Part shown: piece after piece, positions 181 through 39,500 of the stretch
Numbering within the stretch: the stretch's first letter is position 1
How the letters are laid out: each line of letters starts with the position of its first letter
The notes under the pieces: generated by a model
What the model was told of the DNA's origin: nothing
Databases searched by the model: none
Seen by the model: only the letters and a program-made list of their open reading frames with translations
NCBI RefSeq assembly: GCF_008831285.2
Contig: NC_045142.1
Coordinates: 7,478,713 to 7,542,712, forward strand
Direction of reading: 5' to 3'
Origin: Nymphaea colorata
Lineage: Eukaryota > Streptophyta > Magnoliopsida > Nymphaeales > Nymphaeaceae
DNA length: 64,000 bases
Made by a program: the position numbers and the translations under genes

Positions 181-879
181 AAATTATCGATTGAACTGAG
201 TTGAATCAAAATATGTCTCCAAAATCAAAGTGCAAAATAAGAAAAAGGAAGCATACCATGTTTCCCTTCATTCAATTTGATAGTGGAAACGAAAAGGGTC
301 TGATTCCATTCGACCGGACTTGTTTTCAGCCTGAGTTACATAAGAATCGAGAGTTATAAACAGTCTCCTGGTCAAATCAATTCATGGGCTATTTTTCTAA
401 CTTGACTATGGCAATTAGGATTAGTCTCAAGAATCTCAACCATTGCAAGCACAGGGCAAGTAAAGCCAGCAACAAACAAACTCAAATTCTGCAAACAGTC
501 CATAAAATCCTCAATACCAAACTGTTCTCACAGTACATAGAGGCACGTACAGCAGCTAGTACACAAAATTTGTTGTACACTTTTATAGATGAAGCAATAA
601 AACCATAAACTTCTCTTTCCACAAAAAAGAAGAACACAAACTTCACGGAATGATGAGACCACCAACAAAAGCTCATCCACGGCAGTCGTGAACTTAAACG
701 AGCCACGGTATTGGAGAGAGAGAGAGAGAGAGCCACAGCCATACGCCAAACATGAAGTCTACATGGAAGCAGTTTGTTCTCATGGAAACCAAGAACAATC
801 AGACTGAGGAAAGCACCGCTTCTACTCTGAGAGCAACCTCAACGGCACAATTTGTCTAAATCCATTCTTGTAATAGAAT
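181..879. other. Upstream region of HCF152, no gene seen
   Basis: Non-coding sequence with a (GA)n run at about 714-732. Short open frames here show no recognisable protein features. Confidence 0.5.
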
Positions 880-960
880 CTCTCTCTCTCTCTCTCTCTC
901 CCCCCTCTCTTCCCACTTCCTCGACCCCCCTCTCTTTTTCTCTCTCTCTTATCATCCCTA
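880..960 (+). promoter_or_regulatory. CT-rich leader of the HCF152 gene
   Basis: A pyrimidine tract made of (TC)n at about 880-900 followed by more CT-rich sequence lies on the coding strand, ending about 20 bases before the start codon. Such CT tracts (Y patches) are common in plant core promoters and 5' leaders. I do not see a clear TATA box at a fitting distance. Confidence 0.45.
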
Positions 961-978
961 CCAAATCCATATCCACCA

Positions 979-3069
979 ATGGCTTCTTCTCTGGCCGGAG
1001 CGGCCACCACCACCACAGCTACCGGCCTTCTCTCCGCCACCGTCTCCACCTCGGAGCCGACCTCCGGTCGTGGCCGCACCAGAATCGCCACGTCGACCTC
1101 CTCCTCAACCGCAGAGAATGCGCTGCTTGTGGCTCTGCGGGAACGCCGAACGGAGGATGCGTGGGTGCTCTACTCCCGGGCCTCCGACCTCCCAAATTCT
1201 ACCTGCCTCAGCCGCCTCGTGTGCCAGCTCGCCTACCAACAGACACCTGTAGGCCTGTCGCGCGCACAGTCCATCTTCCGCCGCCTCCGCCGCGAGAAGC
1301 AGCTCGGCCGCCTCGACTGCAACTCGCTCGGCCTCCTCGCCGTCTCCGCGGCCAAGTCCGGAGACACAGTCTACGCCTCCGCTATCGTGAATTCCATGCT
1401 CAAAACCGGGTACTTCCCTCATGTCAAGGCGTGGAGTGCGGTCCTCAGCCGGCTCGACGATGCGGAAGCTGCCATCACCCTTTTCGACGCCGTTTGCCGG
1501 CACTACCAGCAATTGACAGACATCGGCACCGCTGACGTCGTGATGGCGGACATGAAGCCTGACTGTGGGGCCTTCAACGCCGTGCTGAATGCGTGCGCCA
1601 ATGCTGGAAATGCCCGGGAATTCGCGAGAATTTTCGGCACCATGGACCGGTTTTCGGTGAAGCCGGATGTCCTGACCTTCAACATTATGATTAAGCTTTG
1701 CGCCAGGTTGGAGAAGAAGCATCTTCTGGTTCGCGTCCTCGAGAAGATGGTGGAAGCAGGAATAAGTCCGTGCATCACCACCTTCCATTCCTTGGTGGCA
1801 GCTTATGTTGGTCTAGGAGATTTGGGCGCGGCGGAAAATCTGGTCCAAGCTATGAGGGAAGGTAGGAGAGACATAATTGAAGTGCTCCGAGATACGAATC
1901 TAGAATCTAACCGGCAGGAGCCATGCTTAATCGAGAATTCCGTGCTTGAATTGAGCACGAAATCGGCGCTACAGATAAAGAGCAGCTACTATCCTGATGC
2001 AAGAATCTATACCACTCTGATGAAGGGCTATATGCAGCAGGGGAGAGTGAATGATGTAGTGATCATGTTGAAGGCAATGAAGAAACAGGATGACAAGCTC
2101 AGCCAACCTGACCATGTCACTTACACGACTGTGATCACTGCATTTGTGAACAATTGTCTGATGGATGAAGCTCGCATGCTGCTCACTGAGATGGCTGTAG
2201 CAAAGATACCGGCTACCCGCGTTACCTACAACGTGCTGCTCAAGGGTTATTGCCAAATGATGCAGATGGAGAAAGCAGACGCGCTTGTGCAGGAGATGAA
2301 AGAGAATGGACTCCAGCTCGATGCAGTTTCTTATAACATCCTTATTGATGGCTGCATCCTCGTTGATGACAGCATGCGCGCTCTTTCTTACTTCAACGAG
2401 ATGAGGACGAAGGGTATTGCCCCTACCAAAGTGAGTTACACCACTCTGATGAAGGCATTTGCAGTCGCTGGCCAGCCCAAGTTGGTAGTGAAAGTGTTTG
2501 ATGAAATGCTTCAGGACCCGAGGGTGAAGGTTGATGACGTTGCTTGGAATATGTTGATTGACGGGTACTGCAGATTGGGGCTGATAGAAGAGGGCAAGAA
2601 GGTTTTCAAGAGAATGAAGGAAAATGGGGTGCATCCCACTGTTGCCACTTATGGCAGCTTGGCAAATGCTATTGCTATAGCTAGGAAACCTGGAGAAGCT
2701 TTACTTCTTTGGAATGAGATCAAGCAGAGGTGCAACGGAGAAGTAGAGGCTCCGCCATTGAAGCCCGATGAAGGGCTGCTTGGCACGCTCGCAGATATAT
2801 GCGTGCGAGCAGCGTTTTTTAAGAAAGCATTGGAGATTGTTGCTTGTATGGAGGAGAATGGAATTCCACCGAACAAGACGAAGTACAGGAGGATATATAT
2901 AGAGATGCACTCTAAGATGTTTACAAGCAAGCATGCATCTAAGGCCAGGCAGGAAAGAAGGAGTGAAAGGAAGCGAGCTGCTGAAGCTTTTAAATTCTGG
3001 TTGGGGCTTCCAAATGCTTACTATGGAAGTGAATGGCGACTTGAGTCACCTATTGAAGATGGCGAGTGA
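979..3069 (+). CDS. HCF152: Chloroplast PPR protein, HCF152 (At3g09650) ortholog
   Basis: A single uninterrupted 696-residue reading frame. The first ~50 residues are rich in Ser, Thr and Ala and nearly free of acidic residues, as expected for a plastid transit peptide. From about residue 190 to 640 it is a chain of about eleven 35-residue P-class pentatricopeptide repeats, each opening with forms of PD-x-x-x-[YF]-[NT] (near residues 194, 229, 339, 377 and 596). The conserved C-terminal block has MFTSKHASKARQ and then AAEAFKFWLGLPN and YYGSEW, which I recognise as the HCF152 signature. In Arabidopsis HCF152 binds the psbH-petB intergenic RNA and is needed for processing the plastid psbB operon transcripts and for cytochrome b6f accumulation; the same role here is inferred. 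The Arabidopsis protein is longer (about 780 residues, from memory), partly because of an acidic insert before the middle repeats that is much shorter here. The start is the first in-frame Met before the transit-like region, after a CT-rich leader. Confidence 0.93.
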   Translation: MASSLAGAATTTTATGLLSATVSTSEPTSGRGRTRIATSTSSSTAENALLVALRERRTEDAWVLYSRASDLPNSTCLSRLVCQLAYQQTPVGLSRAQSIFRRLRREKQLGRLDCNSLGLLAVSAAKSGDTVYASAIVNSMLKTGYFPHVKAWSAVLSRLDDAEAAITLFDAVCRHYQQLTDIGTADVVMADMKPDCGAFNAVLNACANAGNAREFARIFGTMDRFSVKPDVLTFNIMIKLCARLEKKHLLVRVLEKMVEAGISPCITTFHSLVAAYVGLGDLGAAENLVQAMREGRRDIIEVLRDTNLESNRQEPCLIENSVLELSTKSALQIKSSYYPDARIYTTLMKGYMQQGRVNDVVIMLKAMKKQDDKLSQPDHVTYTTVITAFVNNCLMDEARMLLTEMAVAKIPATRVTYNVLLKGYCQMMQMEKADALVQEMKENGLQLDAVSYNILIDGCILVDDSMRALSYFNEMRTKGIAPTKVSYTTLMKAFAVAGQPKLVVKVFDEMLQDPRVKVDDVAWNMLIDGYCRLGLIEEGKKVFKRMKENGVHPTVATYGSLANAIAIARKPGEALLLWNEIKQRCNGEVEAPPLKPDEGLLGTLADICVRAAFFKKALEIVACMEENGIPPNKTKYRRIYIEMHSKMFTSKHASKARQERRSERKRAAEAFKFWLGLPNAYYGSEWRLESPIEDGE

Positions 3070-8799: not shown

Positions 8800-9455
8800 T
8801 AGGACTGCACACTACCATAGTCGATCTCAAGCTTGGCCAGTTCCAGGTCGACTCGGCTTAAAAAACTTGAGCTTGGTTCGAACTCAAGTGAGTTTGTAAC
8901 ACTTCAGAAATTTAGTTTTATATTAAAGATTGTGAGGGATATTCAATAAGTTATGAAAGGAGGTCATTAATGAGATGATTGTCATGGTTTTAATCTTTTG
9001 AAAGCTGAAGCTGAAACTGTAAGGGGGAGTTGAGATCCGTCGAATCAGGGGTTCGAGCCCAGGAGTGGGTCGAATTGTTATAGAGCTCCTTATGGCAAGC
9101 TTGAACTCGACTAGACTATATAAAATCGATCTCAAACTCAATAACTCGTGTAAACATTAACTGATTTAACTCGTGTAAGCATTAACTTGTGTAACTTTTG
9201 TGAAAATTTGTTTTACCCTAAAAGTTAAAACCGGTGATTTGGTGAACCAGTTTTGGCAATTTAACATATAGTACAAGTTTGCGAGTAGAATCGAGTATAA
9301 ACGAGTCGAGTTCCTGAAACTTGAACTCGACTTGTTTATTGTTTCAAGTATCTTTATAAGCTCGAACTCGACTCGTTTATTAACGAGTTAAGCATGAGCT
9401 GAGTTTTTTTTTAGAGAGTTCGAGGGGAGTTGTCTCGGCTTGTTGTGTAGCCCTA
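8800..9455. mobile_element. hAT-like non-autonomous element with GAGCTCG-type body
   Basis: It begins TAGGACTGCACACTAC, and the reverse complement of its right end begins TAGGGCTACACAACAA, giving imperfect terminal inverted repeats. The interior is rich in AACTCGA / TCGAGTT words, as in other short elements of this window (the array units, 59918-59990). It carries an internal segment resembling an LTR (8895-9082). No transposase is present. Confidence 0.5.
8895..9082 (+). mobile_element. LTR-like fragment, copy 1
   Basis: It starts TGTAACAC and contains GAGCCCAGGAGTGGGTCG followed by TTGTTATA. The same words in the same order occur at 57941-58060. TGTAACAC starts are common for LTRs of plant Ty3/gypsy elements. 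No internal retroelement domain is adjacent, so this may be a solo or broken LTR; the assignment is tentative. Confidence 0.4.
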
Positions 9456-13845: not shown

Positions 13846-14616
13846 GAAACATCATTCATAACTTATATATAAAGATTTTAAAGTGGCAAGTTAATTGTTT
13901 TGAGTTTATAAGGAGAAGTAATTAAACGTTTAGACTACCAACCAAGCTTTGGATCCTATTTTACACAATACTTTTGGCTTGGATGGTAACATTCTTTAAC
14001 TTGGATGGATCATGCGATGCTTCACTTTAATTTTCTCTATCGAAATGTCCATTAGTTTATACATCAGCTTTCCAAACTGCTTAGAAAGCAAAAAAAAAAA
14101 AGGTTTATACTTTTCCAAGCTCACATATTTGATATTACTTGATATAATAACATGGCCAGAAGTCCCACGTGGGCATTGCCGCATCTACCGGAGTTGATCT
14201 TCCCATTGTATTTTTCACCAAGTTTACGCTTATTTTCGAAATAATCCAAAAACTGGGCGGTTTATGGAATATGATAAAGTTTAGAAGTGGAAAACGAAAG
14301 CTGCTTTATTTCCCTTTTAGCGTTGTTCCTGTGTTCTTTATGTTGTCTCCCTGTAAAGGACGAGGGTGTGGTGTGGTGTCCCCACATCAGTGACTGGAAC
14401 GAGACAAGCAGGCGTGTCCGTGGGGGCTCGAACACGTGACCTCTCGCTCTCTCTTGCTTGGTCGCTCCGCAATAAGAGAAATGCGCATGGCAGGTATCAT
14501 GAGGAGACCCACACTAAAAGGTGGGAAGGAACAAGTGAGATGGAAAGAGGAATTGACACAAGGATCCTTTGAGTTTCTCGAGGAACACTTTGCCTGGCAG
14601 TTCTCTTTCTCTTTGG

Positions 14617-15018
14617 GAGCTTTGTTTGCCTTGAATATGAAATCCGGTATGATTTGAGATAATTAGAAATCTTAAATCTAGGGAATTGATGCTTCATCTT
14701 TCCTACCAAGAAAAAAAAAAAAAAATCTTTGAGAGTTTGTTTGCCTTGAATATGAAATCCAAGATGATTTGAGATCACTAGAAATCTTAAATATAAGGAA
14801 TTGATGTTTCATCATTCCTACCAAGAAAAAAAAAAATAATCTGTGGAGCTTTGTTTGCATTGAATATGAAATCCGAAGTGATTTAAGATCACTAGAAATC
14901 TTGTTAATCCGTGGGAGATTTGTTTGCCTTGAATATGAAATCCGGTGTGATTTGAGATCATTAGAAATCTTAAATCCGAGGATTTGACACTTCATCCTTC
15001 CTACCAAGACAAAAAAAA
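14617..15018. repeat. Four-copy tandem repeat, ~113 bp unit
   Basis: TTTGTTTGCCTTGAATATG or its near-variant starts at about 14621, 14736, 14849 and 14919. Three units are about 113 bases and the third is cut to ~70. Each full unit ends in CCTACCAAG and an A run. Apparent protein-coding frames across it are artefacts of the repeat. Confidence 0.85.
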
Positions 15019-16770: not shown

Positions 16771-17939
16771 TACTTATCCTTTAACCATTTTCTTATATAT
16801 TTGAAGGGCCTACGATTTTATGAATCGGTAACTTTCGGTAAAAATTTCTGACTCTACCACTGAGAGCTCCCATAAGCAGTGGCTGCTCATGTTGAATACC
16901 AAACGCCAATTCCTCATGAAATTTCCAAATGTTAGTGGGAAAATGAAAAACGCCAAGAGTATACCGTGCTAAAGTTTGTTTTTGGTACAACAAATACTAC
17001 AAACGTCCAGTTTGTTTCTAGATGCAATTAAATCTCTCTCCACATGTGGTTGATGTAGCGTGACTTGGGTGTTACGGCGTCTCGCTTGTGACGGTAGAAT
17101 ATCTCAGCATTTTAACGCCATGCAGTAAAGAGTACCACTATGTGTCAAGCGATTGAGAGTGGAATGCCCTAACAAATAATGTTGTCGGATTGATATACAA
17201 GTATTGAAGAAAGATTGGACCTATTAAACGACAAAGCCTTCTTGTTCCTAGAGAAAAAAAGGTTACATTTTTTAGGTTTCCCCCCCCAATATCGAGGGAA
17301 ATTACAAACACATGTCTTGTTTCGGTTGTTCCTTCAGAGCAAAATTTCTTACCAATGGTTTTTGATACTGGGTAAAGCTTCACCTATTAGTGCATCTAAC
17401 GATCAAACAAGTAAAAAATCTTCCCCATATTGTTAAGGTAAAGAAAAAATGGTTGGTCTTAAGAGCGGCCCAATTTTTTCTTAAGAAAATATTTTCTTTT
17501 CCTCAAACGGCCCTTAAGTGAAAGTTTCAATGGTGAAAAAGACTTTTCTCATTACGTAAGAGGGCGTGCAGCAACAGGTGTAGTTTGTTACTGTTTTATG
17601 AATTAACCAATCGAAATGGAGCCGTAAATTTTTTCTTGTTGAAACGATACAGAAAAGATCAACATGGCCCTTGTACAAGGATGACACACATCAATCAAGA
17701 AATAGTAACTCTTGACGGAATTGTAAAACATCGAGGGGCACCATTACATAATAAATCAAATTATCTAATGCAATTTTTCTCCTAATCCCTATTATTTTCA
17801 TTGAGATTGGTGTCATAAGCCGACTCCTCCTACCGTGCGGCACCGCAGCAAAGGATGACTGTACAGACACGACACAAGAGGACAATTGGTCACCATAATA
17901 TAATTCATTAAGAAGATGCCTGAGTATGTCCTTTGAGCC

Positions 17940-18585: not shown

Positions 18586-19908
18586 CTCTCCCTCCAACTC
18601 CCAACTCCCTTGGTTTAACACTATGGTTTATTCAAGGTTAGTGGCACATGGAACCAAAATTACATGGAACTTTACACTTTGTACACCAAATAACATATCT
18701 GCCATGCCTCAGTTTTTGGTACTTTTTTTTTTTTACTTCAGTTAAAAAGGGAAAACCTCGAGATGAACCCTATTGACACCAGAAATTCAACTTTTGAATC
18801 ATATTTTACTCTTGACTCGTGGAATTTGACCTTCAATGGACACTCGTTCAATATCGGACATGAAAATTTCACCTCTAAAAATATCTCAAGATGTACGTAA
18901 TGGGTGAAATTTTACCCATTTACTTCATCTTGAATTAAACGTATTCCTACATGTTAGTTTTTGACTATTTTTTCCAATATTAACTTGGTACAAGACATGC
19001 TTTAATTCAACTTGTTTTCAAGTAAAATATTAAATTTTCTACTATCAAAATTTCGGTCTCATATGAGTTATCGATTTTTTTTAATAATTAAAAATTGATA
19101 CACTTATTGTCATATTATTCTTACATTCATAATTATATGTTATTCTTACAATCATATTTACAAAGTTTGCTTGCATAAAAAGAGTACTGTAATTATTTAT
19201 TTTGAAGAACATAGTTTTGTGTCTAATTTATGATATATCATGACAAATCAGTAGTACTAGATCTTAGGTGTTAGGCTTGCATGTAGCTCTCGCAACCGTT
19301 GATTTTTAAGAGATCGGTGGTTGAGAGAAAAAGTAGAAGAAAAATGAGATAAACCATTTTTTGTCATTTAATGTTAATTCACAAATTTTTCTGTATTTTT
19401 TTTTCAACCGTCAATCTCATATGAATCAAAGGCGAAGATGGTTTCTAAGAGTGTAGTACCAAATTTTCAAGATATCTTTTTTATTTTTTTGTATTTATGT
19501 CTAGGTGACTTAATGAGGTCGGGGCGAGCTACGACCATTTTGCAACTGGACCCGACCCGCTTTACGAATCGTTTGGTCGACGGTTGATGGCATTCTTGAT
19601 ATTTCTCGAACATAAAAGGGTACTTCTGGAGCCGCTGCACCTGAGGATGTCAAGCCTGTGTTGGAATTTGGAGACCGCGTGACAGCTGGATGTCAGTGAT
19701 GCCTCTTCCGATTCGTCGTTTAAGAAAACCCGGTTTGTTATTGGCACAAACCGGTCAGTTAATTACATTTTTGTGCATGGCAGCAGTTAAAAATCCTTTA
19801 ATTATTTTGCCATTTTTTAAATTTTATATTCAAAATCCATACCGTTCTAATGGCTGTACTCCACTTAAGACATCTTTTTAATTTTTTTTTTTTTGCTTAA
19901 CACGTGAA

Positions 19909-22900
19909 GATAAAGAATCTCAATTGTAGATCCAAATTTATCTAATCCCAGGTTTGTTATCCGAATGTGAACTGGACTGGACGTTTATCCTTTTAACACC
20001 TTTTAAAGCGTTTCTAGTATTTGCAGTTTTGTTTTCGGTCAGTTGGAATCGGCCTGTATTTTCATTTATATAGATTATGAATCGGTGCTTTGAAATATTT
20101 CAAATTTCAAGTCCTCAATCGGCTAACATCCTTTTAGTTTGATAAAAAACCGATAGACAATATATTTGTTCTTATTTAACGTGAAACAGTGACCCTTAAT
20201 GAGTGGGGGGACAACCAACAACCCCAATCCATAACTACTGGAAAGCACATCATATAACAACTGTCGATATTATTAGGAGAGTGGTGTCCACCAGAATCAA
20301 ATAAAACAACCCATCACATGCATTAGGGGTGAACACGAGCCAAGTAGAGCCCAAGTTCGGTCAGCTCAAGCTCGACTTAACTAATAAGACCTCGAGGTCG
20401 AGAATAGCTCGACGGAAGCAGTTTGAGCTCGACTCGACAGTTACGTGTTGAGCTTGAGCTCGACTCGATTAAGGGTCGACAAATTCGTTTGAATAAAATT
20501 GATATTCATCGTTACGTGTTGAGCTCGAGCTTGACTCGATTAAGGCTCGACAAACTCGTTTGAATGGAATTAACATTCATCCTCAAGTTGTTGAGCTCGA
20601 GCTTGACTTGATTAAGGCTCGACAAACTCGTTTGAATAGAATTGATATTCATCATCAAGTTGTTGAGCTCGAGCTCGACTTGATTAAGGCTTGACAAACT
20701 TGATAAAGAATCTCAACTGTAGATTCAAATTTATCCAATCCCAGGTTTTTTATCCGAATGTGAACTGGACGTTTATCCTTTTAACACCTTTTAAGGCGTT
20801 TCCAGTATTTGCAGTTTTGCTTTCGGTCAGTTAGAATCAGCATGTATTTTCATTTGTATAGATTATGAATCGGTGCTTTGAAATATTTCAATTTTCTAGT
20901 CCTGAATCGGCTAACAACCTTTTAGTTTGATAAAAGACCGATAGATAATGGATTTGTTCTTATTTAACGTGAAACAGTGACCCCTAACGAGTGGGGGGAC
21001 AACCAACAACCCCAATCCATAACTACTGGAAAGCACATCATATAACAACTGTCGATATTATTAGGAGAGTGGTGTCCACCAGAATCAAATAAAACAAGCC
21101 ATCCTATGCATTAGGGGTGAACACGAGCCAAGTAGAGCCCAAGTTCGGTCAGCTCGAGCTCGACTTAACTAATAAGACATCGAGGTCGAGAATAGCTCGA
21201 CGGAAGCAACTCGACTCGACAGCTACGTGTTGAGCTTGAGCTCGACTTGATTAAGGGTCGACAAACTCGTTTGAAAAAAATTGATATTCATCGTTACGTG
21301 TTGAGCTCGAGCTTGAGTCGATTAAGGCTCGACAAACTCGTTTGAATAGAATTGATATTCATCCTCAAGTTGTTGAGCTCGAGCTCCACTTGATTAAGGC
21401 TTGACAAACTTGATAAAGAATCTCAACCGTAGATCCAAATTTATCTAATCCCAGGTTTGTTATCCGAATGTGAACTGGACGTTTTTCCTTTTAACACCTT
21501 TTACGGCGTTTCCAGTATTTGCAGTTTTGTTGTCGGTCAGATAGAGTCGGCCTGGATTTTCATTTGTATAGATTATGAATCGATGCTTTTAAATATTTCA
21601 AATTTCAAGTTCTGAATCGGCTAACATCCTTTTAGTTTCATAAAAGACAGATAGATAATGGATTTGTTCTTATTAAACGTGAAACGATGACCCCATAACG
21701 AGTAGGGGGACGACCAACAACCCCGATCCATAACTACTGGAAAGTACATCATATAACAATTGTCGATATTATTAGGAGAGTGGTGTCTACCAGAATCGAA
21801 TAAAACGACCCATCATATGCATTAGGGGTGTACACGAGCCAAGTTGAACCCAAGTTTAGTCAGCTCAAGCTCGACTTAACTAATAAAGCCTCGAGGTTGA
21901 GAATAGCTCGACGGAGGCAGTTCGAGCTCGACTCGACAGCTACGTCAAGCTCGACTCGATTAAGGGTCAACAAACTTGTTTGAATAGAATTGATATTTAT
22001 CGTTACGTGTTGAGCTCGAGCTTGACTCGATTAAGGATCGACAAACTCCTTTGAAAAGAAATGTTATCATCCTCAAGTTGTTGAGCTCGAGTTTGACTTG
22101 ATTAAGGCTTGACAAACTTGATAAAGAATCTCAACTGTAGATCCAAATTTATCCAATCCTAGGTTTGTTATCCGAATGTGAACTGAATGTTTATCCTTTT
22201 AACACATTTTATGGTGTTTCCAGTATTTGCAGTTTTGTTTTCGGTCAGTTAGAATCGGCCTGTATTGTCATTTGTATAGATTATGAATCAGTGCTTTGAA
22301 ATATTTCAAATTTCTAGTCTTGAATCGGCTAACATCCTTTTAGTTTGATAAAAGACCGATAGATAATGAATTCGTTCTTATTTAACGTGAAACAGTAACT
22401 CTTAACGAGTGGGGGGACAACCAACAACCCCGATCCATAACTACTAGAAAGCAGATCATATAACAACTGTCAATATTATTAGGAGAGTGGTGTCCACCAG
22501 AATCACATAAAACAACCCATCCTATGCATTAGGGGTGAACACGAGCCAAGTTGAGCCCAAGTTCAGTAAGCTCGAGCTCGACTTAACTAATAAAACCTCA
22601 AGGCCGAGAATAGCTCGACGGAAGCAGTTCGAGCTCGACTCGATAGCTACGTGCTGAGCTTGAGCTCGACTCGATTAAAGGTCGACAAACTCGTTTGAAT
22701 AGAATTGTTATTCATCGTTTTGTTTTGAGCTCGAGTTTGGCTCGATTAAGGCTCGACAAACTCGTTTGAATAGAAATTATATTCATCCTCAAGTTGTTGA
22801 GCTCGAGCTCGACTTGATTAAGGCTTGACAAACTTGATAATGAATCTCAACTGTAGATCCAAATTTATCCAATCCTAGGTTTGTTATCCGAATGTGAACT

Positions 22901-23540
22901 GGACGTTTATCCTTTTAACACATTTTACGACGTTTCCAGTATTTGCAGTTTTGTTTTCGATCAGTTAGAATCGACTTGTATTTTCATTTGTATAGATTAT
23001 GAATCGGTGCTTTGAAATATTTCAAATATCAAGTCCTGAATCGGCTAACATTTGATAAAAGATCGATAGATAATGGATTTGGTCTTATTTAACGTGAAAC
23101 AGAGACCCCTAACGAGTGGGGGGACAACCGACAACCCCGATCCATAACTACTAGAAAGTACATCATATAACAATTGTCGATATTATTAGGAGAGTGGTGT
23201 CCACCAGAATCGAATAAAACAACCCATCATATGTATTAGGGGTGAACACGAGCCAAGTTGAGCTCAAGTTCAGTCAGCTCGAGCTTGACTTAACTAATAA
23301 AACCTCGAGGTTGAGAATAGCTCAACGGAAGCAGTTCGAGCTCGACTCGACAGCTACGTGTTGAGGTTGAGCTCGACTCGATTAAGGGTCGACAAACTCG
23401 TTTGAATAGAATTTATATTCATCGTTACTTGTTGAGCTCGAGCTTGACTCGATTAAGGCTCGACAAACTCGTTTGAATAGAATTAATATTCATCCTCAAG
23501 TTGTTGAGCTCGAGCTCGACTTGATTAAGGCTTGACAAAC
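19909..23540. repeat. Five-unit tandem array, ~710 bp period, with nested ~72 bp sub-repeats
   Basis: The marker GATAAAGAATCTCAA (GATAATGAATCTCAA in the last unit) recurs at about 19909, 20702, 21412, 22120 and 22836, and the array ends near 23538. Units are therefore about 793, 710, 708, 716 and 702 bases. Each unit has a ~500 base unique part followed by a run of sub-repeats containing GATTAAGGCTCGAC, spaced about 65-75 bases. Unit 1 carries four sub-repeats and the others three, which accounts for its extra length. Units differ by scattered substitutions and small indels, so the amplification is not brand new. Each unit also contains AGGGGTGAACACGAGCC or a variant, similar to the ends of hAT-type elements. 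Open frames inside are by-products of the 72-74 base periodicity. Confidence 0.9.
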
Positions 23541-24038
23541 TTGTAAAATCGTTTGAATATATTGACTTGATTAAGACTCGAGCTTGACTGAGCAGTTAAG
23601 TGTTGAACTCGAACTCAACTCAGTTATTTGAACTAGTTGAGAAATGAACTCGAGTTCGACTGGTTAAGTTTTTTTCTGTTTGCATCACTTAACTGCAAGG
23701 ACCGAAAATGTTGCCACCTGGTTTTCCGTTTTCAACTTTTTTTTTACCCTACTTCTTCTTTTTCTTTTTCCAAGTATACCCTAAAAATGTCAAGATGGAC
23801 GCAGGGCTGAATTCAGATCTTGGTTAGACCTTTGGTTAACAGTATTGACCCGGTTGGCAGGTCCTTTGGTCTATAATAACTTCAAGTTCGGGTTTGGATA
23901 ATATCAGCTAAACTGGCTCCTATAGCTCATTGAACTGGGTCCACTTTATGCACATCCTCGATCCTGCAGATGATTACGAGTCTGAACCCAAGAAATGTAA
24001 GACAGACCAAATTTGGTTAAAGATCTAAACAAGATCAT
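23541..24038. other. Flank of the tandem array
   Basis: GAACTCGAGTTCGACTGG and further such words continue to about 23690, ending near TTTGCATCACTTAA, which may be the far end of the hAT-like element from which the array grew. The rest is unremarkable. Confidence 0.4.
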
Positions 24039-24298
24039 TTAAGTTGTGTTTGATTACCGTGGATTTCAGATCCGTAGTGATCTCAGTTCACTGCATATTT
24101 GAATACCGCAGTTTTCAAATCCAAATCACCTCCCATCCAATTTCAAATCCACACTTTTTACATTAAAGTATGGATTTGAAATCCACGTTGAGCGTAGAAG
24201 CTGAAATCCTCAGTTTCATAGAACTGTGGATTTCAGCTATCACAGATTTGAGATTTCCTGGGATATGAGATCCGTGGGGAATCACACGCACCCTTAAA
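24039..24298. mobile_element. MITE-like palindromic element, ~260 bp
   Basis: The ends TTAAGTTGTGTTTGATTACC and, in reverse complement, TTAAGGGTGCGTGTGATTCC form imperfect terminal repeats. The interior also folds: ATTTCAAATCCACAC pairs with GTATGGATTTGAAAT across a short loop. The flanking TTAA/TAA is compatible with a PIF/Harbinger-type target site. Confidence 0.55.
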
Positions 24299-36511: not shown

Positions 36512-39500
36512 ATGGAAGCATTGAGGTCGTCATATGGGTCATCGTCTGAGGATACAGACGACGATTCTTCTCTGGAAAGAAGCAAGAAGCGGGCAGCAGT
36601 CAGCCCTCCCTCGCCGGAACCGCAGTCCCTTCCCCCTCCTCCTCTTGACCTCTTGGATCCGCCAGGTCAAAAATTTCTCGTTTAACTGATGCATGTTTAT
36701 CTACCCTTCATCATCAGCGTCACCGTTGTCTTATTTGAATGAAAAATGAACACATATTGTAATTTCTTCTGTTTGTTATTCTTGGTTAATTTTTTTTGGT
36801 TGGTCCGCAAATGGGTTGAGTTGTCTGGGAACTGTTCGAGATATGACTAATCTCAAAGTTATGGAAATTGAGCTGTAATCCTGCAGAAAAGAACTAGACG
36901 TTTGTGTTAGTTGGACTAGTGCATGGGTCGATTAGTCAATAAAAGTGACAGAGCTGGCGATTGAGTGTTTGGGATATTGATCTGGTTGAGGTCGTTGAGG
37001 TTCAAAGAGGTGGCAACACATTTTTCTGGCTGATAATTTGTGAGGCTAACAGGAGTGGAACTTGGGGTGACATCAATGGAATCATCGATCAAACAAAACA
37101 GTTTTTCAGTGCTTGAAGGTTGAGTGCAAAATCTGCTCGGTAATCAAGAGACAAATTTAGTCCTCAGTTCGTGATTTTCTTTTGCAGTTGAATAGTTGCC
37201 TAGAAAATTTCACATGCACTTTTTTTTTTTTTTTCATTAGAGGAAATGCATTCTGAAGATACTTTTTAGGCCACTGGGGATTCTGTGGTTTTGCCATACC
37301 GTATTTGCGATTACTGCCTTGATTTAGTTGATTATAATACATGTTTAAGAAGAACTTGATGAACTTTAAGAAGTTTAAGAAGCCTTCCTTGCACGTGTTT
37401 TGGCCCTTGTATGGCTTCCTTAAGTAATGGCGTGATTCGTCAAGTAGGTGGTTGGTTCTGTTTTCTTAATGATCTAAGTTCTGTCTACTGCTTTACAAGT
37501 CTCATTTTGTGGTTGTTTAAAATGATGATTTCTTTAGAAGTACAATATTCTCTTGCATTTTGTTGACAGAACCACTGGGGTAAATATTCAGCTTTAAATA
37601 TTACTATATATTATCTATTATTGCCAAGGAAATTGATTGGACAATTCAGTCTCTGAGACAGTTAATCCATGCGGTTAATAGTAATAATTGTCCTCTCCTC
37701 TCCCTATGTTAGATTATCAGAAATAGGTTAAAGGATTATTTGATTATCCCATGCCTAGAAATCATAAAAATTTTACAGTTGCAAGTGTTGTTTCATTGTC
37801 AAGACATGAAATGGCACTTTGAAGATGAATGAAAGCCATCACTGATTAGTCAATCTTTGCTCCTTTAAGCAGAGAACAGAGCCCTAAGAGACCGTACTTT
37901 GCTTTGACGAGTTAATTGAGAAAGAATTACAAAGTGTTCTTATTGCATTGAGTAATCTCTGGAGTTAGAGTTCTCCACATGGGTATGTGAATAGATATAG
38001 AGATTCCTTTTTATGGTATGTAGGTTTCTTGTTCATTGGCCATGTAGATTTCTTGTTCATTGGTCGTCTAATCTATGCCTAGGAAACTTCTGTGAATGAT
38101 AAGATTTTATTGTTTTTCTGCAGTCATCTTATTTTCTTATATCAAATGTGGATGCTACAAGATAGGAAAGGAAGCTGTGCATATAATAAAGAACTTTAAG
38201 TATTTGTTTAGCAGAAATTTTTGTTATTTGATTGGCAGACTTTTCTTCCTAAGAATTTGGTATCTAGAAATAAAGATTTATCCATGATGCAAAAGTGAAA
38301 GTCAACTGTCTGACAATGGCTACTGTAACCTTGCTTGTAACATTATCAAGTTGGCAATGGCGTACACAGTATCAGTATAATCCTATGGTCTCACAGACAT
38401 GGCATCACATGAACTGATAAATGCGTAGAAGTTTGTTTTCTTTATCTTTTTCTGTGGATATTATAACATTTCTTAAGTAGGAATTGCCATTAAATTTTTC
38501 CCGTTTTCTTCTGCTGCAGTTTTTTTTTTTTTATCATGGTTTAATGAGTTAATTGCAGCTCATGATATATAACTTTTCTTGGATTTCAGCTTTTTTTCAA
38601 ACAAATGCAAATCGGGTTAGAAGCTTTCCGCACGTAGAAGGAAATTATGCACTGCATCTCTTTATCCCAGGTTCATTTGGGGTTTTCATTTGAACGTTTT
38701 TCATATGATTTTCTTTAGTTCGTAGTTTGTACTAATCGTCTTCTCATTCTTCTGTCCATGGTAGTCTTGATACCTGCAGTAATGAAGAAACAGTTGGTAC
38801 CTTTAATCAGAAAATCTATGTTGCTTGTGGAAGGGCTTCATGCTGTTGATATCGACATCCCTTTGAAGGATCTCTGTGTAGATGATGAAAAGTTCCTGCA
38901 ACTTGTCTTGGGAAGGGAGTTTCACATAAGCTTGTCTAGAACTGTTCCTATTCGCGTGCATCAGATTGATTCAATTGTCACAATGCTTCAACAGAAGTTC
39001 CAAGCCCAAAAGCGGTAGGTAAATTTTGTGCAAATGCTTCTTGTAGTTTCTGCCAGTTGAGCTTGATCAGCGAAATATTTAGTCACAAAAAGCTGATTGC
39101 CATTGTTGTCTACGCAGGTACTGGATAGAATTCAATACTTGGGAAGTGTTTGTTAATGATGATAGGACTCGAACTTTTCTGTCTATGGAAGTTAGTACCA
39201 GAGGCTTAAAGGAGGTATATGATCATTGCAGGGTCCTTGCTTTTTAATTTAAGCTTTTACATTCATATTCACGTATACATCTGTTTAGGTTCCTGTTTTA
39301 GTGCGTGGAATTAATGTTCTCTTCTCTTGTTTCAGATAACCAGGCAAATTCAAGTTGTGAATGATGTATATAGGTTGCATAATCTCCCAGAGTTTTATGA
39401 GGTGCAGGCACTTATCAAAATCCTTTACTGCTGGGCTTATTATGTGCAATATGCATTTAGATAATTGATTCTGTGAGGACATGTTAATTTGTGAATATAT

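Follow-up and report, generated by a model that had tools for sequence, protein, structure and literature searches.

A five-unit tandem array in Nymphaea colorata that probably arose by old local duplication of host DNA and the 5' portion of a non-autonomous hAT-type transposon

We analyzed a stretch of 64,000 nucleotides from Nymphaea colorata (contig NC_045142.1, positions 7478713-7542712; the window hereafter) with 65 open frames of at least 90 aa, ten of which were chosen for a Pfam search. Four of these gave matches: a PPR gene (877-3069, forward strand), an RRM gene on the forward strand (first recognised frame from 25933 on), an HVSL exon (38719-39018, forward strand; this family also goes by the name USB1) and a triose-phosphate-transporter-type gene on the reverse strand (48659-48009). 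The tandem array described here (19909-23542) ends ~2.4 kb before the RRM frame. Pfam recognised no gene within the array among the ten frames, and its longest stop-free stretch amounts to only 66 aa. Likewise, scanning the window against Rfam at gathering thresholds gave no match in the array, and a tRNA scan of the window with the bacterial code found none. The sole Rfam match in the window is to U6 snRNA (17603-17716, forward strand, 56.3 bits). Plant U6 promoters carry USE and TATA elements; inspecting the sequence upstream of 17603-17716 by eye we saw no clear copies of them, so this match may be a pseudogene. Tandem Repeats Finder also reported a tandem array at 14610-14971, where a 115-bp unit (2.6 copies) overlaps a 69-bp unit (2.0 copies).

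The region 19909-23542 is filled by five head-to-tail units of 793, 710, 708, 716 and 707 bp, all read on the forward strand (unit 1, 19909-20701; unit 2, 20702-21411; unit 3, 21412-22119; unit 4, 22120-22835; unit 5, 22836-23542), and ends two bases beyond the position given in the initial annotation. Self-BLAST of 19400-24200 returned 39 off-diagonal matches, and those longer than 300 bp have offsets of 711, 793, 1420, 1503, 2135, 2211 and 2927; shuffles of non-overlapping dinucleotides, used as a control, gave zero matches in 30 of 30 cases. The delimitation of the units and these offsets confirm the five ~710-bp units described from the sequence earlier, and the diagonals near 710 bases expected in a self-alignment are indeed present. 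As the longest period accepted by Tandem Repeats Finder was 500, the 710-bp period lay beyond its reach. In all five units the program found a terminal stretch with a period of 71-72 bp (3.6 copies in unit 1; 2.4-2.6 in units 2-5), in agreement with the inner period of ~72 bp noted before.

Each unit is made up of a host segment followed by the 5' part of a transposon. The host segment (19909-20323 in unit 1, forward strand, 415 bp) is present in all five units. The transposon part occupies 20324-20701 in unit 1 and begins at 21112, 21823, 22530 and 23237 in units 2-5, in each case with the 5' terminal inverted repeat (TIR) TAGGGGTGAACA (20324-20335 in unit 1, forward strand; one change in the copy at 21823). 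What had been taken for a unique segment of ~500 bases in every unit is really ~415 bp of host DNA plus ~120 bp from the 5' end of the transposon. From its TIR the transposon part runs to an abrupt stop at AAACTT, and GATAAAG (GATAATG in unit 5) of the following host segment adjoins it directly at all four inner junctions. Unit 5 runs on to the right into a single-copy transposon remainder (23543-23668, forward strand), which continues in register: 23502-23668 matches positions 336-522 of the 596 positions of the family profile described below with one 20-position gap (nhmmer, E 1.2e-41), and this match spans the breakpoint 23542/23543. Thus, since the transposon continues past the last unit, the left flank, one unit and the remainder represent the order before duplication. 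The final ~74 positions of the transposon, including the 3' TIR, are gone, so that only a 5' end is present here. At the two breakpoints, CACGTGAA/GATAAAG and AAACTT/GTAAAATC, at most one base is shared in register, suggesting that the first duplication came about through end joining or an error of replication.

Searching the 408-Mb assembly (783 contigs) with unit 1 (19909-20700) gave at least 84 matches, a lower bound since scoring covered 40 of 1261 first-look candidates. This whole-genome search with one unit, proposed in the initial annotation, returned the array itself as the five strongest matches, while none of the other matches listed starts before query position 413; the transposon starts at 416 of the query. 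As a family sample we used all 39 non-array loci among the matches listed (L006-L044), which hold 40 element clusters. Both TIRs were found in 34 of the 40 clusters with at most 3 mismatches in 12 positions (ends TAGGGGTGAACA...TGTTCACCCCTA), and these 34 elements have a median length of 575.5 bp. The family consensus carries an identical 12-bp TIR, inverted, at both ends. The 8-mers flanking the elements match at six or more of eight places in 22 of the 34 cases (9 perfect), compared to 9 of 1120 control pairings of unrelated flanks; this evidence for 8-bp target-site duplications comes from other members of the family, the copy in the array having lost its 3' end. The remaining 12 elements with two TIRs show no clear duplication, which is what decay or mis-set ends would give. 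Short TIRs together with 8-bp target-site duplications are hallmarks of the hAT superfamily. Both are found in this family, which we therefore class as non-autonomous hAT-type, the superfamily being assigned from the TIRs and the 8-bp duplications only. Among the literature matches listed on hAT, MITE and satellite we found no Nymphaea work. Two of its loci, at 7.90 Mb (L009) and 6.94 Mb (L013) of contig C7, share 2470 bases that are 99.6% identical and inverted ~1 Mb apart, so that this stretch was either duplicated recently or doubled in the assembly. Within the window, 8801-8875 and 9070-9455 weakly resemble one end each of the element profile (E 2.4e-4 and 3.9e-7, respectively) and perhaps represent a much older copy or relative.

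Full sub-repeats, i.e. those covering at least 60 model positions, occur in all 40 clusters, although this presence is partly built in, as the loci were chosen by similarity to a query bearing sub-repeats. For the same reason, copies without sub-repeats could have been missed. The number per cluster ranges from two to eight (two in 15 clusters, three in 18, four in 4, and five, seven and eight in one each). The sub-repeats of the array are the internal minisatellite of this dispersed non-autonomous hAT-type transposon and were not born in the array. Two levels of amplification, as suggested from the sequence at first, do exist, but the inner period originated elsewhere: it came with the dispersed element. 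In unit 1 the sub-repeats span 20446-20701 (forward strand) and comprise three full copies of 71, 72 and 72 bp and a 41-bp partial one. Units 2-5 have two full copies each (63-72 bp; the first one of unit 3 is shortened to 63 bp) and a partial copy. A comparison of the sub-repeats across units shows that the additional copy previously noticed in unit 1 alone is real. Certain marks are bound to position: in 5 of 5 units GGTC is found in sub-repeat 1, and in 5 of 5 sub-repeat 2 ends with CATCCTCAAGT, while AAGGCTTGAC characterizes the terminal partial sub-repeat in 5 of 5 units and is present in 0 of 11 full ones. Since these marks recur in all units, the sub-repeats had diverged before the units were copied. 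Sub-repeat 3 of unit 1 has ACTTG as in the terminal type, and elsewhere AAGGCTCGAC and ATCAAGT, close to sub-repeat 2; ACTTG is also present in the first sub-repeat of unit 2. This make-up would fit a 72-bp unequal exchange, the fit depending on one base. Unequal exchange, which the initial annotation had considered probable, is a fair reading of the difference in sub-repeat number, and its direct support comes down to this single base shared with the terminal type. Either unit 1 gained a sub-repeat or units 2-5 lost one.

Used as a query (412 bases, 19909-20320), the host segment gave 5 matches from 5 candidates in the 408-Mb assembly, all of them at this locus, in a search that skips very common words; the case for no other array of this kind in the assembly is strong but not absolute. 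This also bears on the idea that the entire ~710-bp unit is one mobile element, e.g. a Helitron forming head-to-tail arrays. Head-to-tail units with constant ends are indeed present here, but the host segment has no match outside the array, the search with it found no dispersed copies sharing both ends, and on the right the hAT-like element simply continues, so that the flank is not an insertion site. Furthermore, the units end in GATAAAG...AAACTT, without the TC...CTRR of Helitrons, and we consider this explanation extremely improbable. The divergence between units is 0.078 for the host part and 0.079 for the transposon part. Being equally diverged, the two parts were probably copied as one piece, and for the same reason no constraint is seen on the host segment. 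We see no sign of a function of the array. It is very unlikely that the five host segments were kept for a regulatory role as a multi-copy element lying ~2.4 kb upstream of the RRM gene, or that the 72-bp repeats provide extra transposase-binding sites whose number is under selection in the family.

Pairwise K2P distances between units range from 0.057 to 0.111. Over the aligned positions this amounts to 5.5-10.2% difference. Every unit carries private changes, and some have indels as well. Artefactual copies or haplotigs would be near-identical instead, so that an assembly duplication artefact is hardly credible as the source of the array. We counted 100 changes confined to a single unit versus 19 two-against-three sites, once columns with gaps or with three bases had been excluded. 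The tree of the units is near to a star, with internal branches making up just 7% of its length (supports 80 and 52). A strict star is worse by ~10.3 lnL, however, some of the splits conflict, and 500 rough star simulations yielded a mean of only 3.8 two-against-three sites (maximum 12) compared to the 19 observed. As the shared sites exceed the star expectation, some stepwise copying or conversion occurred. Most of the copying seems to fall into a short period, accompanied by a degree of stepwise growth or exchange, after which each unit decayed on its own. At 6.5e-9 substitutions per site per year, a rate known for grasses and assumed for this plant, the divergence of the units corresponds to 4.4-8.5 million years; with 1.5e-9 and 1.3e-8 as rates the range widens to about 2-37 million years.

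The initial annotation had suggested a young satellite seed or a copy-number-variable locus. Such an array would still be active and sustained by ongoing unequal exchange. Five tandem units with a nested repeat, the differing sub-repeat number in unit 1 and the conflicting shared variants between units, above the expectation of a strict star, would suit such a locus. The divergence of the units, the near-star tree with its short internal branches, the excess of single-unit over shared changes and a host segment that finds no further match in the assembly all contradict it, and we regard it as a very improbable explanation. Satellites form long homogenised arrays, usually at several loci; here we find five diverged units at one locus. 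Judged from the sequence, the array is most consistent with an old duplication that has seen no recent homogenisation.

Taken together, we conclude with a probability of roughly 90% that the array is an old local tandem quintuplication in which host DNA was copied along with the 5' portion of a non-autonomous hAT-type transposon. Its starting point would be the dispersed family, with the 12-bp TIR, the 8-bp duplications and the 71-72 bp minisatellite shown above, which is represented here by a 3'-truncated copy. Reading the anatomy of the locus, the duplicated segment appears to begin in host DNA (19909) and to end inside the transposon (23542). For every round of duplication the mechanism is what we infer. 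The first one would have joined non-homologous ends at the junction AAACTT/GATAAAG, by end joining or a replication error, and unequal exchange between the then homologous ~700-bp units may have raised their number to five, mostly in a short time. A 72-bp unequal exchange or slippage would then have altered the number of sub-repeats in unit 1 versus the others, and the units have probably decayed separately since. The two levels of repetition would thus stem from unrelated steps, a minisatellite borne by a transposon and a later segmental tandem duplication that happened to end inside the transposon. Nested periods by themselves are no proof of satellite birth. Tandem duplication across a transposon is a known kind of event, and the wider importance of this one is low.

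The components have counterparts in other genomes. BniHAT-1 and -2 of Brassica nigra (PMC7385995) are plant hAT MITEs or non-autonomous hAT elements and, like the present family, are short non-coding class II elements with dispersed copies; the internal 71-72 bp minisatellite sets our family apart from them. Tetris, a foldback transposon of Drosophila virilis, resembles our family: it is likewise a non-autonomous DNA transposon, and its internal tandem repeats (TIR-220) vary in number, a variation for which unequal crossing-over was proposed (PMC4079207). Its repeats are described there as having grown to satellite-like arrays of kb size, whereas the present array consists of host DNA and part of a transposon in five units only (PMC4079207). 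With the MITE-derived tandem repeats treated in a review (PMC9659126) our sub-repeat has in common that the monomer was born within a MITE; unlike those repeats, the outer 710-bp period stems from segmental tandem duplication in which host DNA took part. Among the 40 clusters of our family, the longest inner arrays are those of L025 and L029, with 8 and 7 full sub-repeats. L029 (23.01 Mb of contig C5) was at first suspected to be a second tandem duplication, as two matches lie next to each other there; it consists of two insertions, both flanked by a perfect 8-bp duplication of their own. By their sub-repeat numbers, L025 and L029 may be better candidates for satellite-like growth than the array at 19909-23542.
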